A stretch of DNA of 64,000 bases from Saprospiraceae bacterium. Lineage in GTDB: Bacteria; Bacteroidota; Bacteroidia; Chitinophagales; Saprospiraceae. Shown here piece after piece: positions 26,460 to 61,389 of this stretch. Under the pieces are notes generated by a model, which did not search any database, was not told the DNA's origin, and was given only the letters and a program-made list of their open reading frames with translations. The stretch spans positions 1 to 64,000 of the forward strand of contig JANWXM010000019.1 of assembly GCA_025055285.1 (NCBI GenBank). The letters are read 5' to 3'. A program made the translations under genes and the position numbers. Numbering within the stretch: position 1 is the first letter of the stretch; each line of letters begins with the position of its first letter.

Positions 26460-28484
<2,025 letters not shown>

Positions 28485-54956: not shown

Positions 54957-55795
54957 ATCATATTGAACTTTACAATACAACTTGCTTGGCGTGTAGTAGC
55001 CTTATCACCCGCCGCTATTCGACGTCATTCTCGTTGGGCATACGGCTTTTCCATCCGCGCTTCCGAGGACCTATTTACGGCATCTACGGCTTTGTGCGTT
55101 TTGCTGATGAAATTGTGGATACCTTTCACCATTGCGACAAGAGAACGCTACTTGAGCGTTTTCGACAAGATACTTACCGCGCCTTAGACGAGCGTATTAG
55201 CCTCAATCCAGTGCTTCATGCTTTTCAGGAAGTAGTCCATCGATACAACATCGACCGCGAGCTGATTGACGCTTTCCTGTATAGCATGGAAATGGATCTG
55301 TATAACACTACGTATGATACAGATGGCTATCGCAAGTATATCTACGGCTCTGCGGAGGTAGTGGGTCTTATGTGTCTACGCGTGTTTTGCGAGGGCGATG
55401 AAGAACTATACTACAGGCTCAAGGAGCCGGCGCGCCGTTTAGGGTCGGCGTTTCAGAAGATCAATTTTCTTCGCGACATCCGGAGTGACTATTATGAGCG
55501 TGGTCGAGTTTATTTCCCAGGCGTAGATTTTAGGCATTTCGATAATGAGGCAAAGCGCCGCATCGAGGCCGATATTCAAGCCGACTTTGATGCTGCTCTG
55601 GAAGGCATTCGCCTCTTGCCTAAAGGTGCACGGTTGGGCGTCTATTTGGCGTACAAGTACTACACCCAGTTGTTTGCCAAGATAAAACGAGCTCCAGCCC
55701 AGTGCGTTGCTCAAGAGCGTTTTCGCGTCTCTGACCGCCGCAAAATGCTCTTGCTTTTTAGCTCAGCCTTGCGGCATCAGCTGAATTTTCTGTAA
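54953..55795 (+). CDS. crtB: Phytoene/squalene synthase family protein (CrtB)
   Basis: 280 residues. Two Asp-rich Mg-binding motifs: YGFVRFADEIVDTF (about 44) and FLRDIRSDYYERGRVYFP (about 165). TRRYSTSFSLGIRLF at the N-terminus fits CrtB and SQS proteins. It condenses two GGPP to phytoene, consistent with the adjacent crtI. The gene overlaps the crtI stop by 4 bases and its 3' end overlaps the convergent ppk2 end by 19 bases. Confidence 0.93.
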   Translation: MNHIELYNTTCLACSSLITRRYSTSFSLGIRLFHPRFRGPIYGIYGFVRFADEIVDTFHHCDKRTLLERFRQDTYRALDERISLNPVLHAFQEVVHRYNIDRELIDAFLYSMEMDLYNTTYDTDGYRKYIYGSAEVVGLMCLRVFCEGDEELYYRLKEPARRLGSAFQKINFLRDIRSDYYERGRVYFPGVDFRHFDNEAKRRIEADIQADFDAALEGIRLLPKGARLGVYLAYKYYTQLFAKIKRAPAQCVAQERFRVSDRRKMLLLFSSALRHQLNFL

Positions 55796-56557
55796 TCTCC
55801 ACTTAAGAAATTGACTTCAGGTCTCGAGGGTTGCATGGGCAACTGCTCCAAGCCTTCTACTAGAGCGCGCGCAACAAAGTAGTCGCGATACCAGCGGTCA
55901 CCTGCAGGGCAGATATGCCAGGGTATAACACTTTGATTAATAGCGTATTCATAAGCTGTCATGTAAGCATCCCAGTGCTCGCGCTCTTTCCAGTCATTAG
56001 GATTGTGTTTCCAATATTTATCAGGGTCTTCCAAGCGTTCTAACAGTTGTTTCTTTTGTTCTTCCTTTGAAATGTGAAGATAAAATTTAAAAATTTGTGT
56101 GTTGTTGTCAAAAGCCAGCAGTTCTTCGAAGGCGTTAATAGCATTCATGCGCTGTTCGACGCGTTTTTGGTCGATCCATCCATGGACGCGCTGAATGAGT
56201 ATATCCTCGTAATGGCTGCGATTGAAGATAGCAATCATACCGCGCCGAGGCGTTGCCTTGTGAACCCGCCAGAGAAAATCGTGGGCAAGTTCTTCCTCTG
56301 TCGGCTTTTTGAAGGCCGTCAGGGTTAGCCCTGTAATACGGCAAGCGCTAAAAACACGGTGCACTACGCTGTCTTTTCCGCTGCCATCCATACCTTGGAG
56401 CACTACAAGCACGGCGTATTTCCCTTCCGCATACAAAACATTGCTGTAAATCGCCCAGACGCTTTACTAGTTTATGCGTTTGCCGTTCAATTTCGTCTTT
56501 GTCCAAACCTTTTGGCGCACTAGTAGCTATTTCGTTCAATCGAATTAGTTTCTGCAT
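55777..56557 (-). pseudogene. Polyphosphate kinase 2 family gene, frameshifted
   Basis: Two frames together make a PPK2 of about 260 residues. The upstream part (from the ATG at 56557) has LIRLNEIATSAPKGLDKDEIERQ and ends near RLGDLQ. The downstream part continues LYAEGKYAVLVVLQGMDGSGKD (Walker A GMDGSGKD), then HDFLWRVHKATPRRG and IFNRSHYEDILIQRVH. Joining needs a one-base change, either just after the CAG at 56443-56445 or in the four-A run at 56435-56438. After it, the family spacing LQ-x-x-LYAE is restored. The downstream frame lacks an ATG. Cause: real mutation, sequencing slip or programmed frameshift. PPK2 phosphorylates nucleotides from polyphosphate. Confidence 0.85.
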
Positions 56558-56960: not shown

Positions 56961-57485
56961 ATGTCTCCTGAAGGCTTCTCTACACTGACCGCTCAAGAGT
57001 TTGACACCCTTCGCCAGGTACCCCTTTGGATAACGCTCCTCATCGGGGGTGCCGACGATACTTTCGATCGCTCTGAACGCGATTGGGCAGCCCGTATCGT
57101 ACGCATCCGTACTTATGCTCGCGAAGGCAGTTTCGACGAATACTATCGCCAAGTAGCGGAAAACTTTGTCAACCGTCTAGATGAACTTTGGGAGAGCCTA
57201 CCCTCTGATGCTGAAAGCCGAAACCAACTCCTTGCCGAAAAGATTGCAGAGGTTAATCCTATCTTGGCCAAATTGCATCCTCCTCTCGGTGCATTACTCT
57301 ACCAAAGCTACTGTAAATTGGCCGATGAAGTAGCCAAAGCTTCTGGTGGTTTTCTTCGCATAGGCGCTGTCAGTCCGGAGGAAAACCGCTGGGTAAAGCT
57401 GCCCATGCTCACGCCTATCTACTCCGAGGAAGCAAGTTTATTCGCTAAATGGGAAGAAGATGACTCTTCTGGCCTGAAAACTTGA
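56961..57485 (+). CDS. Conserved alpha-helical protein of unknown function
   Basis: 174 residues, no signal peptide or membrane segment, predicted mostly helical. Notable stretches are VPLWITLLIGGADDTFDRSERDWAARIVR near the N-terminus, which resembles TerB-like helical domains with acidic metal-binding loops, and FLRIGAVSPEENRWVKLPMLTPI at the C-terminus. I do not recognise a named family. It is convergent with nuoM and stands alone. Confidence 0.6.
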   Translation: MSPEGFSTLTAQEFDTLRQVPLWITLLIGGADDTFDRSERDWAARIVRIRTYAREGSFDEYYRQVAENFVNRLDELWESLPSDAESRNQLLAEKIAEVNPILAKLHPPLGALLYQSYCKLADEVAKASGGFLRIGAVSPEENRWVKLPMLTPIYSEEASLFAKWEEDDSSGLKT

Positions 57486-57630: not shown

Positions 57631-59103
57631 TTACAGCTGAACTGCTCCTAAAATGCGATTGACACTTTCATCAGTCAACATTAGCACCCAATTGGGCAAA
57701 AGACCTAGGATAAGGACAAGTGCAGCAATGCTACTTAGCACAACGGTTTCGAAGCGGTCAGCGTCTTTGAAGGAAGAAGAATGCGATCCAAGAGGGCCAA
57801 ATACGGCTAAGCCATAGGCTCGGAGCAGATAAGTTGCTCGGAGGATAAAGTTCACGCTTATTGCAATTCCCAGGAGGTAATGGTACTTCCAGACGCCATT
57901 TAGCAGCAGGAATTCCCCTGCAAAGCCGTTGGTCAAGGGAGCTGCAATGGCACCTAGAACAATAACGAAATAAAGCGTTGCCAATAGTGGCGCGGGGCGA
58001 GCCAGGCCGCCCATATCAAAAAGGTCGCGCGAGCCAAGGCGACGCTCTAAGGTTTCTGCGACAAAGAGTAGCCCCACTACATTAATGCCTTGAGCCAGCA
58101 CTTGAAGGAAGCAGCTCTGTAAACTTGCCTTATTCCAAACCAATGCACTGACAGTAATTAGTCCTACATATGCCATGGACGAGTAGGCAAGCATACGTTT
58201 TAGATCGCTCTGCTTCAGGGCGATAAGGCTAGCGTATAGGGTTCCAAACACGGTTATGCCCAAAAGTATCGGCACCTCTGCATGCCAGGCCTCCGGCACT
58301 AATGGTATCATCCAGCGTACAATACCATAGAGGCCCATTTTGAGTACAATGCCCGACAATAGCATAGCGCCGCCCAGCGGTGCACTTACAAATAGGTCTG
58401 GTAGCCAGCTGTGCAAGGGAAACAGCGACATGCTTGCAGCAAACGCTGCGAAAAAGCTCCACATCACCCAACTTGCTAGGCGAGTATCGAGTTCAGCAGC
58501 GACTAACGTCTCCCACGTAAAAGAGTGAGTCCCTGCTTCTTCAGAATGCAGTTGATTGTGCACTGTCAGCAAGGCCACAAGGAGGAGCAGCGAGCTAAGG
58601 AAGGCGTGTAGAAAAAATCGAAATGCAATTCGAGTAGAGGTTTCTCTACGGTTCAGCGCCCAAATGAAATAAATAAGCACAAATGCGGCTGTGTAGAAGA
58701 CATAAAATAACAGTCCGTCTAATGCTGTGAACAATCCATTCAAGGCAGCCAACATGAGTAATGTTAGCCTGTAATAGTGCGCCTCTTGAAGATGGTGGCG
58801 CGTACTAAAAGCCAAAACGACGAAACATGCCAGCGCGTTGGTTAGCAGCAGCATTAACACGCTGACACCATCTAAACCTAATCGAAAAGACACTCCCGTG
58901 TGCGGTATTTTGAATAGGTCAAACGCATAGGCGTATTGGCCATCTGCCTGAAGGCCCAAGAGTAGGTAAACAGTGAGCAACATATTGGCCACGACTATGC
59001 CTCCCGCAACTTTACGTGCTGGCAATGCCCAAACTCGAAGGATGATAGACCCAATAAGTGGTAGGAGAATAAGAAAAACTAGCACGGCAAAATAAGACTT
59101 CAA
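57631..59103 (-). CDS. nuoM: NuoM-like subunit, key proton-path residues missing
   Basis: 490 residues, about 14 predicted membrane segments, alignable along its length with E. coli NuoM (ALDGLLFYVF; SLFPLHSWLPDLFVSAPLGG; SDLKRMLAYSSMAYVGL; GFAGEFLLLNG). However, the TM5 Glu144 of E. coli is Thr138 (FYTAAF instead of FWEMML), the TM7 Lys234 is Ser224 (FAASMSLFPLH instead of FAVKMPVVPLH) and the later His is Gln338. Lys265 (here Lys255) and Glu407 (here Glu397) are kept. In E. coli, Glu144 and Lys234 are essential. It follows nuoL by 68 bases with no other nuo gene in the window. Confidence 0.85.
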   Translation of the reverse strand: MKSYFAVLVFLILLPLIGSIILRVWALPARKVAGGIVVANMLLTVYLLLGLQADGQYAYAFDLFKIPHTGVSFRLGLDGVSVLMLLLTNALACFVVLAFSTRHHLQEAHYYRLTLLMLAALNGLFTALDGLLFYVFYTAAFVLIYFIWALNRRETSTRIAFRFFLHAFLSSLLLLVALLTVHNQLHSEEAGTHSFTWETLVAAELDTRLASWVMWSFFAAFAASMSLFPLHSWLPDLFVSAPLGGAMLLSGIVLKMGLYGIVRWMIPLVPEAWHAEVPILLGITVFGTLYASLIALKQSDLKRMLAYSSMAYVGLITVSALVWNKASLQSCFLQVLAQGINVVGLLFVAETLERRLGSRDLFDMGGLARPAPLLATLYFVIVLGAIAAPLTNGFAGEFLLLNGVWKYHYLLGIAISVNFILRATYLLRAYGLAVFGPLGSHSSSFKDADRFETVVLSSIAALVLILGLLPNWVLMLTDESVNRILGAVQL

Positions 59104-59171
59104 GAGAGATAGGTGAGTGAATTTTCTTTTACTAAGGAATTACCTCAGCGAAGAACGCTAGAGGCCTCTAC

Positions 59172-61013
59172 TTAAGAGCTGTTGCTAGTATTTTGTCGAC
59201 GGCGGAATATTGTGCCTAGACGTTGTACTGCCTTGCCGATCCCACTAATAGAACCTTCCATAGCCTGCACCTCGACGTAGTAGTACAACAGCTGGGATAG
59301 ACGTTCCATAGGGCGGACGACCATCCAGTCGTAAAACTTGTCGAGATAAAAGTTCTCAGTAAGGATACGTTCTACCTTAGAAGAAGAGGTTGTATAGACG
59401 GGCATGTGCCTGTGCACGACGTAGAACCAGTAAGCTCCAACGATAGCACCCAAAACTAACAACATAGCTGGGCTGACAAACAACCATACCATCGAGGCAG
59501 GCAAGGCGGGCTTCGCATGAGTTTCTCCGAACAAACGATGTAGGAAAGGTATTAGCCAATCTGCTCCTACTGCAGGCATTAAAGGTGAGAAACATAAGAA
59601 ACCACTTACCAAAGAAAGCGAAGCCAACACCAACGGAGGTATTGCCATCGCATGTGGATACTTTCTTAAATGTATGCGATGTTCTTCTGTTCCGCGAGAA
59701 GCGTTGAAGAACATCGCGAAAAACAGACGGCTCAGGTACAATGCTGATAGACCACTGCTCATTGTCACTAATAACCAGCCGCTTATGCCTAGACTGGCAC
59801 GGGTATTGGCTAGAAGTTCGCCCCAAATGGATACACCTGACAATACAGGTACTGCAACTATGATTAAAGCGCCCCACAGAAACGTCCAATAAGCTATGGG
59901 AAGAGCCTGGCAAAGCCCGCCCATCCGTCGAATGTCTTGTTCGCCGCCTAGCGCGTAGACGATCAAACCTGCAGATGCAAAGAGCGTTGCCTTAGACAGA
60001 GCATGTGCTGTTGCGCAAAGCATTGCCAGCAAAGGAAGCCCTGTTCCAAGTGCAAGAAAGGTCAGACCTAACTGCGCAACCGTCGAGTAAGTAAGTATCC
60101 TGTTAACATCGTGCTGTCGCAGAGCTATTAGACCCGCCAACAGGGAAGTGACTAGACCAATAAGGGCCAAGCTCTCATGTATCAAAGGTGCTACAGTAAG
60201 AAGAGGATAACAGCGCATGGCTAGGTAAAGGCCTCCCATAACTCCCGCGGTTGTCTGCATAAGGGCCAAAGCAGGCATCGGAGCGATTGCACTATCGGGT
60301 AACCATGTAAAGAGTGGCACTTGTGCACTTTTGCTCACTACACTTACAAGCAGCAGTCCTCCCAGGGCTACTCCCGTAGCCGAGTCGAGTCGAAGCCGCG
60401 GCAACAGTTCAAAAACCTCGCTATATGCGTATGAATTAAAAGCGCCAAAAATGACAAGTAAACCTAGAAGCAATCCTACGTCGCCAATACTATTTACGAA
60501 AAACAATTTGCGAGCTGCTCTCGTCGAGACTCGATTAGCATACTGAAAACTCACGAGCAAATACGAACTCAAGCTCAAGCCCATCCACCCAGCAAACATC
60601 ATAACTAGGTTATCGCTCATGACGAGGAGCAACATCGAGACAAGTGATAGATTAACATAGGCAAAAAAACGCCAAAGACTTGGCTGGTCTTTCAGGTATC
60701 CCGAAGAGTATACTTGAATGAGTGAACCTATGCCCGTAACGAGGAGCATCATCCAAGCCGACAGCCCATCTATTCGAAGGGAGAAGTGCACGCGGAGACT
60801 GTCTACAGCCAAAAAAGTGTACACAGGCGTACGAATGGGTTCGCCTCCGCCATACAGGTGCACGAAGAAGTACAAGCTAAGTAAAAACGACAGGAGGACT
60901 AATCCGGCACTGAGCCAACTCATGGCATGCACCGAGAGCCGGCCATTTAGTAGCCCATTTGCCACGGCTCCTATCAAAGGCAACAGCAGGACGAGAATGG
61001 CAACAATATCCAT
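59172..61013 (-). CDS. nuoL: NuoL-like subunit, several proton-path residues missing
   Basis: 613 residues with the NuoL layout: about 14 core membrane segments, a long amphipathic lateral helix region and a final segment (about 545-600). It aligns with E. coli NuoL through DGLSAWMMLLVTGIGSLI, RFFAYVNL, SKSAQVPLFTWLPD and DVNRILTYSTVAQLG. The conserved Glu144 is Met144 (GWMGLSLSSYLL for GWEGVGLCSYLL), His254 is Gln253, His334 is Cys333, Arg175 is Ser175, and the SKDE motif near position 400 is replaced by IWGE. Lys229, His338 and Lys342 equivalents remain (228, 337, 341). The start lies next to a gene-free region; nuoK is not adjacent. Confidence 0.85.
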   Translation of the reverse strand: MDIVAILVLLLPLIGAVANGLLNGRLSVHAMSWLSAGLVLLSFLLSLYFFVHLYGGGEPIRTPVYTFLAVDSLRVHFSLRIDGLSAWMMLLVTGIGSLIQVYSSGYLKDQPSLWRFFAYVNLSLVSMLLLVMSDNLVMMFAGWMGLSLSSYLLVSFQYANRVSTRAARKLFFVNSIGDVGLLLGLLVIFGAFNSYAYSEVFELLPRLRLDSATGVALGGLLLVSVVSKSAQVPLFTWLPDSAIAPMPALALMQTTAGVMGGLYLAMRCYPLLTVAPLIHESLALIGLVTSLLAGLIALRQHDVNRILTYSTVAQLGLTFLALGTGLPLLAMLCATAHALSKATLFASAGLIVYALGGEQDIRRMGGLCQALPIAYWTFLWGALIIVAVPVLSGVSIWGELLANTRASLGISGWLLVTMSSGLSALYLSRLFFAMFFNASRGTEEHRIHLRKYPHAMAIPPLVLASLSLVSGFLCFSPLMPAVGADWLIPFLHRLFGETHAKPALPASMVWLFVSPAMLLVLGAIVGAYWFYVVHRHMPVYTTSSSKVERILTENFYLDKFYDWMVVRPMERLSQLLYYYVEVQAMEGSISGIGKAVQRLGTIFRRRQNTSNSS

Positions 61014-61389
61014 ATAGGCTAGAACAATGTTTCGTCAAATTAGCCGAGCATCAATAGCGTTTTCCTCGAATTTCTGCTGGATGCCATTTCACGGTCTGTC
61101 CTTCTAGACGCGAGGACAGGACCGCTCGTGTGCTTCATTGATCGCGATGAAATTTTTATTGAGGCGAATGCAGATCTTTCAGTCGACACATTCACCGCAA
61201 AAAATTTCCCTCTATTTGCGCTAAAGTGCATACGAGGGTAATTTTCGCTTTTTCTGACCCTGTCGTCCGATGGTTGACTCAAGAGAGCTCGATTACTGGT
61301 CAAACTGCGTGAAAAATGTAGCATAATAAAATTGACTTATTAGTCCTATTCTACGGGTAGTTCCAAAAATGAAAGGAAGTTCGCTTCTA
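61014..61389. other. Intergenic region upstream of nuoL, 376 bases
   Basis: No convincing gene; short minus-strand frames here are not credible. It contains the stem at 61092-61124. No TAnnTTTG element was found for nuoL. Confidence 0.5.
61092..61124. repeat. Imperfect inverted repeat upstream of nuoL
   Basis: CGGTCTGTCCT (61092-61102) pairs with AGGACAGGACCG (61113-61124) with one bulged G, across a 10-base loop. No T run follows. It could be a leader structure of nuoL or a weak terminator of the mannosidase gene upstream. Confidence 0.4.

Follow-up and report, generated by a model that had tools for sequence, protein, structure and literature searches.

The window, by which we mean the whole stretch of 64,000 nucleotides analysed here from a Saprospiraceae genome (G000), carries on its reverse strand two adjacent genes derived from nuoL and nuoM of complex I (Table 1). 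The NuoL reading frame scores above the curated cut-off of its family profile (TIGR01974; 451.3 versus 407.5 bits) and below that of the stricter equivalog NF005141 (442.3 versus 556), and its best solved relative is subunit 12 of a known structure (4he8 chain L; E = 2.5e-85). nuoM follows after a spacing of 68 bases and likewise exceeds its curated cut-off (TIGR01972; 339.8 versus 263.8 bits). The 174-aa protein encoded convergently with nuoM also adjoins nuoM in the sister genome G002 (69% identity over 165 aa) and was not found in the searched stretches of two further sisters, G035 and G018; this common neighbour suggests that the nuoL–nuoM pair sits at its ancestral place. Upstream of nuoL the nearest gene on the same strand encodes a GH92 glycosidase, and the 376 bp between them give no match to the nuo frames of G035 at E 0.01. 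When the window and positions 49000-68328 of its contig (G000:C10) were compared with the G035 frames, weak hits only were returned besides nuoL, nuoM and the frames overlapping them. A scan with what we take to be the Bacteroidota-type promoter pattern found six matches in the window (2.3 expected) and none in the 376-bp gap, and a scan for sigma-70-type promoters gave four matches versus 4.5 in shuffles. Elsewhere in the window a polyphosphate kinase 2 (PPK2) gene (55777-56436) is convergent with a phytoene synthase gene, and the ends of the two overlap by 19 bases.

Table 1. Features of the nuoL–nuoM locus (positions of the window; residues in window numbering unless E. coli is named).
Feature	Position	Strand	Basis
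Gene for a 174-aa protein without Pfam family, convergent with nuoM	56961-57485	+	
nuoM-derived gene, 490 aa, TTG start	57631-59103	-	TIGR01972 profile and alignment
nuoL-derived gene, 613 aa	59172-61013	-	TIGR01974 profile and residue alignment
Shortened NuoL C-terminus, six residues and stop after Gln607	59172-59192	-	alignment
IWGE replacing SKDE, TM12 Lys399/Asp400 of E. coli numbering lost	59817-59828	-	alignment and codons
Codons of Trp397, Gly398 and Glu399 of NuoL	59817-59825	-	columns of E. coli K399, D400 and E401
Cys333 codon of NuoL	60015-60017	-	column of E. coli H334
Gln253 codon of NuoL	60255-60257	-	column of E. coli H254
Ser175 codon of NuoL	60489-60491	-	column of E. coli R175
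ATG codon (Met144), site of the NuoL TM5 glutamate	60582-60584	-	codon and alignment
376 bp separating nuoL from the GH92 gene on its strand, expected site of nuoK	61014-61389	-	
94-aa ORF in the 376-bp gap, without Pfam family, probably spurious	61040-61324		

Seven residues taken as part of the NuoL proton path are lost from the window protein (E144M, R175S, H254Q, K305N, H334C, K399W and D400G in E. coli numbering), and four are kept (D178, K229, H338 and K342). An earlier note on this DNA had read the replacements of E144, R175, H254, H334 and SKDE, the ATG at the site of the glutamate and the retention of the Lys229, His338 and Lys342 equivalents; codons and alignment bear all of these out, and the loss of K305 (Asn304 here) is added to them. 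Glu144 and the TM7 lysine Lys229 are described as residues of the path, and earlier work cited in the same source found that replacing E144 by Ala or Gln in either L or M kills activity, for which the TM7 lysines are likewise required (PMC3046159). K399/D400 and the pairs R175/E144 and K229/D178 are treated in a further study (PMC13144422).

In an alignment that includes E. coli K-12 NuoL, the standard residue stands at each of these lost or kept columns in 29 of 29 congeners, namely those of the 36 same-genus relatives that yielded loci (in four of them a contig end truncates the locus). All 80 named Bacteroidota loci examined are likewise standard at these columns, one of them (L129) being the database entry for congener G018; the E401 column was scored in the congener alignment alone. 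This conservation argues that the NuoL substitutions are neither chance nor family variation, and the recurrence across the clade for which the earlier note had proposed to look is not seen among these loci. A register shift behind the substitutions is ruled out: the alignment of the window NuoL with that of G035 has zero internal gaps across 610 columns.

The C-terminus of NuoL is altered as well. Six residues lie beyond Gln607 in the window protein versus 24-31 in 80 others; the lateral-helix region is kept up to its own end and the protein closes in a short polar tail, whereas in the relatives the lateral helix is followed by a further helix, hydrophobic and some 20 residues long, the TM16 anchor. 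No TM16-like helix was found in any of the three frames of the nuoL strand up to nuoM. E. coli NuoL cut short by a stop at Y590, where TM16 begins, is reported to leave 42% of complex I and negligible quinone reductase activity (PMC3274701).

The window NuoM has lost E144, K234, H322 and H348 (E144T, K234S, H322Y and H348Q in E. coli numbering; the first two are Thr138 and Ser224 in the window protein) and also carries K173R, while H241, K265 and E407 are kept. All five replaced residues are intact in the NuoM of 29 of 29 congeners with loci. Frames of more than 400 aa were obtained from 78 of the 80 named Bacteroidota loci, and E144, K234, H322 and H348 are kept in all 78 and K173 in 77. The alignment of the window NuoM with that of G035 holds a single internal gap of one codon. 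NuoM thus looks disarmed in the same way as the adjacent NuoL.

Judged from the columns that are otherwise invariant, the losses are broad and not confined to the proton path. NuoL keeps 161 of 280 genus-invariant columns and NuoM 150 of 208. Among these columns titratable residues were lost at 22 of 39 positions in NuoL versus 97 of 241 for the others (p = 0.08), and at 7 of 28 versus 51 of 180 in NuoM (p = 0.82); for Bacteroidota-invariant columns the NuoM counts are 4/8 versus 12/41 (p = 0.41). A loss specific to titratable residues is therefore unsupported in either protein. The earlier statement that NuoL has lost most of its proton-path residues stands for the seven named above, which are nevertheless part of a broad change (13/26 titratable versus 46/121 other Bacteroidota-invariant columns lost; p = 0.28).

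The two halves of NuoM differ in how well they are preserved. TM9-13, taken as the NuoL-facing half and including E407, keep 69 of 88 genus-invariant columns, versus 56 of 86 in TM4-8, taken as the half towards NuoN. This difference of +0.13 is above all values in 77 other Bacteroidota (-0.18 to +0.05); the Fisher p of the polarity is 0.064, with half boundaries that were chosen after the profile was seen, and for Bacteroidota-invariant columns the losses in the two halves are 12/28 versus 4/17 (p = 0.22). The NuoL halves are without polarity (58/97 versus 50/85; a value as large occurs in 3 of 79 others). NuoM E144 has been placed at the NuoN interface, with NuoN K395 as its counter-ion (PMC8357420), and TM12 of the MrpD/NuoM type opposes TM5 of the MrpA/NuoL type (PMC5703873). 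Since the NuoL-facing half of NuoM is better kept than the NuoN-facing half, we infer that NuoL and NuoM probably still pair.

Both genes descend with their genome. Among 30 genomes of the genus, the GyrB tree joins G000 to G018, G035 and G002 at 100/100 on an ordinary branch of 0.09. The window NuoL joins the same three sisters at 100/100 in a tree of 27 rows, on a branch of 7.3 that is not trustworthy as a length, and the window NuoM joins them in a tree of 24 rows on a branch of 1.44. Identity to these sisters is 91-92% for GyrB, 51-54% for NuoL and 62-65% for NuoM. Together with the neighbour shared with G002, the trees indicate that the pair is most likely the native copy and in place, with other genes now standing where the operon once continued upstream. 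Neither trees nor synteny support the acquisition of a foreign NuoL by horizontal transfer; the tree program flags the placement of the long branch as unsure. Between G000 and G035 the first, second and third codon positions differ by 37.7, 22.5 and 58.3% in nuoL (530 codons), by 31.9, 15.1 and 60.9% in nuoM (458 codons) and by 7.2, 3.0 and 54.2% in gyrB (642 codons), counted over codons that are gap-free in every row, a rule that excludes the end of nuoL. The GC3 of the window nuoL and nuoM is 0.48-0.50 versus 0.67-0.81 in the nuoL and nuoM of relatives. When gyrB of the window (26460-28451) is taken with the pair (57631-61013), the values are 0.48-0.50 versus 0.61-0.81 in the aligned relatives, and a genome-wide shift of base composition in G000, sampled here in three genes, is possible.

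Selection on the pair was estimated with a home-made codon model in six species, the G000 branch being set against the background. Omega on this branch is 0.24 for nuoL (background 0.047), 0.15 for nuoM (background 0.053) and 0.0095 for gyrB (background 0.025). For the pair both limiting values are rejected, omega = 1 with 2dlnL of 36.5 (nuoL) and 54.0 (nuoM) and omega = background with 63.4 and 19.3, respectively; the omegas are rough because synonymous sites are near saturation and GC3 is shifted from that of the relatives, and, with one genome only, constraint after the loss of complex I is not cleanly separable from constraint before it. The roughly 1,100 codons of the two genes contain no stop and one internal one-codon indel. 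In a neutral simulation the codons of G035 were mutated 200 times until identity had fallen by the observed excess, under an assumed identity of 0.87 before the loss and with base composition not matched. Simulated nuoL acquired a mean of 7.5 stops (minimum 2) versus none observed and 14.2 charges in membrane segments (minimum 7) versus four, and its mean hydropathy was 1.37 (maximum 1.86) versus 1.89 observed and 1.96 in G035. For nuoM the simulated means were 5.0 stops (minimum 0) versus none observed and 7.6 membrane-segment charges (minimum 3) versus two, and the observed hydropathy of 1.83 lies within the neutral range (mean 1.53, maximum 1.93). The omega tests, the simulations and the near-absence of indels together indicate that the fold of the pair was under selection during much of the change. 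The earlier view that nuoL is under selection and otherwise well conserved is thus upheld as to purifying selection, with segments and frame better kept than in all 200 neutral runs, and has to be revised as to its degree: constraint on the pair is relaxed, though not absent, and for nuoL the relaxation is about five-fold relative to the relatives.

The genome (3.62 Mb in 93 contigs, with an estimated completeness of 100% and contamination of 0.2%) contains two PF00361 proteins, both at this locus, and therefore neither NuoN nor a second protein of the NuoL/MrpA/MrpD type. Family searches of the whole genome for NuoD, NuoH, NuoK and NuoB gave no match, and DabA (PF10070) was likewise not found; as positive controls among 14 named genomes, PF00361 was matched in 13, NuoD in 11, NuoH in 11, NuoK in 13, NuoB in 11 and DabA in two. 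These searches cover five of the 12 other subunits (NuoB, D, H and K, and N via PF00361). Over the five families tested, the genome appears to lack complex I. NuoD is matched in 32 of 36 same-genus relatives and in 26 of the 27 that are at least 90% complete; those without a match are G010, G014 and G024 (77-82% complete) and G029. The last of these, which is 99% complete (GyrB locus L072), gave two matches to PF03116 (NQR/Rnf) but none to NuoL, NuoM or NuoD; in this congener complex I has apparently been lost entirely and independently. G000 and eight of the nine relatives tested encode a PF03116 (NQR/Rnf-type) protein, so that an alternative route of NADH oxidation is possible in G000.

In the sisters G035 and G018 the genes from nuoA to nuoM lie together, and in G002 nuoA to nuoL do so, while a second contig carries nuoM. 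Each of the three also encodes, at another place, a third subunit of the antiporter type that is presumably NuoN. The nuo operon of G018 (L059:2894-6878) holds restriction-modification genes on both sides of nuoG, namely two genes for N6/N4 DNA methylases and one for a TdeIII-type restriction endonuclease, together with an unassigned 166-aa ORF. A 357-aa frame with 25-27% identity to both of these methylase genes occurs in the 4.3 kb past the window (G000:C10 64001-68328), so that a gene of this type lies within several kb of the disrupted nuo genes of G000. An orphan pair like the present one was not seen among 41 other species of the genus, a survey that drew residues from 29 species for NuoL and 29 for NuoM, with G060-G064 outside the NuoD search. 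When contigs were scanned with peptides taken from the window NuoL, 30 pattern matches were obtained, none of them relatives, records near its own genome possibly being excluded, and no orphan NuoL–NuoM pair is reported in the literature searched (titles and abstract openings, with subscription journals thinly covered). Beyond what the earlier note had described are the residues lost from NuoM, the absence of the other complex I subunits searched for, the lost TM16 and the fast evolution of both genes; more important than the NuoL substitutions is that, of the complex I families searched, none but NuoL and NuoM were found, with NuoM changed in like manner.

The pair can be compared with three known systems. 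With NuoL and NuoM of complex I it shares direct descent, full-length antiporter-type sequence, the order nuoL–nuoM and the lateral-helix region; it differs in having none of the five tested other subunits in its genome, in the loss of the TM5 glutamate from both proteins, of the NuoM TM7 lysine, and of the TM12 Lys-Asp and TM16 of NuoL, and in a rate of change that is raised several-fold. DabB2, of the DAB2 inorganic-carbon complex, is likewise a NuoL-type protein outside complex I, has a hydrophobic residue at the E144 position, lacks Lys399/Asp400 and keeps the Lys229-Asp178 pair, but its counterparts of R175, H254, K305 and H334 are retained, whereas here these residues are lost, DabA is absent and a NuoM-type gene is kept beside NuoL. 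The Mrp system also places two antiporter-type subunits (MrpA and MrpD) side by side without redox subunits; G000, in contrast, has no protein of the MrpC/NuoK family (PF00420) and has lost the conserved glutamate. With neither PF10070 nor PF00420 in the genome, a DAB or Mrp system is ruled out.

Gated proton pumping by NuoL–NuoM as in complex I is very unlikely because NuoN and the arm that reduces quinone are missing, as are the glutamates of TM5 and the outer lysine of TM12, which agrees with the earlier suggestion that this NuoL does not pump protons in the standard way. Our preferred interpretation, which we would give an even chance of being correct, is that nuoL–nuoM is the distal module of complex I left behind and kept as a pair that no longer serves as a redox-driven pump. 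The remainder of the ancestral complex would have been lost on the G000 lineage while the module stayed in place, and the two proteins would since have been retained as a two-subunit membrane assembly. What would remain is a hydrophobic pair with central buried residues (K265 and E407 of NuoM; D178, K229, H338 and K342 of NuoL) from which both ends of the axis have been removed; its likeliest use might be a passive or slow ion path around these residues, or else a structural one within the membrane. Transport of Na+ has been reported for NuoL apart from complex I (PMC5703873, PMC4938563). Judged from the constraint, an L–M pair with such a passive path or structural role is the most likely reading, at a probability of about one half, and the pair probably does something other than complex I pumping.

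The main rival, which we consider unlikely without dismissing it, is slow decay: complex I would have been lost recently, nuoL and nuoM would be dying remnants whose frames are so far unbroken, and the intermediate omega would average a strictly selected period before the loss with an unselected one since. An omega raised three- to five-fold fits this account, as do the absence of TM16, changes that reach all residue classes, including glycines and the near-invariant positions 241-260, and a NuoM whose hydropathy and stop count fall inside the range of the 200 neutral runs. It is hard to reconcile with a nuoL free of stops where every neutral run had some, with membrane segments of both proteins carrying fewer charges than any simulated copy, and with a single indel across the pair. 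The assembly of the genome bears on a different objection, that the rest of complex I is merely missing through an assembly or binning artefact. We regard this as scarcely credible; 93 contigs and a search restricted to five subunits leave it some room, but the contig that encloses the pair is 68 kb long and has a GH92 gene at the place of nuoK, the five subunits are missing although they occupy two places in the sisters, and the residue losses would stay unexplained.

Two further proposals grant the pair a function of another kind. It could be an ion/proton exchanger with a rewired path, comparable to a minimal Mrp antiporter, as the retained K229, D178, H338 and K342 of NuoL and K265, E407 and H241 of NuoM would allow; NuoL can replace MrpA in Bacillus subtilis (PMC4938563), and DabB2 is functional with Ile at the E144 position (PMC13144422). 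We nevertheless hold this to be improbable, given that both TM5 glutamates, NuoM K234 and any protein of the MrpC/NuoK family are missing, and that NuoL has lost H254, K305, H334 and R175, whose counterparts in DabB2, by our own mapping H260, K310, H339 and R182, give impaired alanine mutants (PMC13144422). Less probable still by a clear step is that an unrelated soluble or membrane partner supplies the missing TM12 charge, as DabA does for DabB. The precedent is DabB2 itself, for which Glu444 of DabA2 provides the charge (PMC13144422); G000, however, has no DabA, and no candidate stands beside the pair, where the nearest gene on the same strand is the GH92 gene and the 94-aa ORF is without Pfam family.

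A common view holds that complex I arose by the assembly of modules. The state of G000 resembles the reverse of that process, a disassembly that leaves the distal L–M module. That this module can survive the loss of complex I as an independent, selected two-subunit device, with the pumping residues gone from both subunits, is a tentative proposal to which we assign somewhat less than an even chance; if it holds, NuoL–NuoM would put the antiporter fold to a use unlike those in complex I, Mrp, hydrogenases and DAB. The two genes caution that an annotation as nuoL or nuoM is not evidence of complex I. If the pair is functional, it would mean that the module can stand alone, and its roughly 1,100 codons, which vary naturally at many sites that are fixed elsewhere, would show which residues serve the fold and the pairing of these subunits and not pumping.
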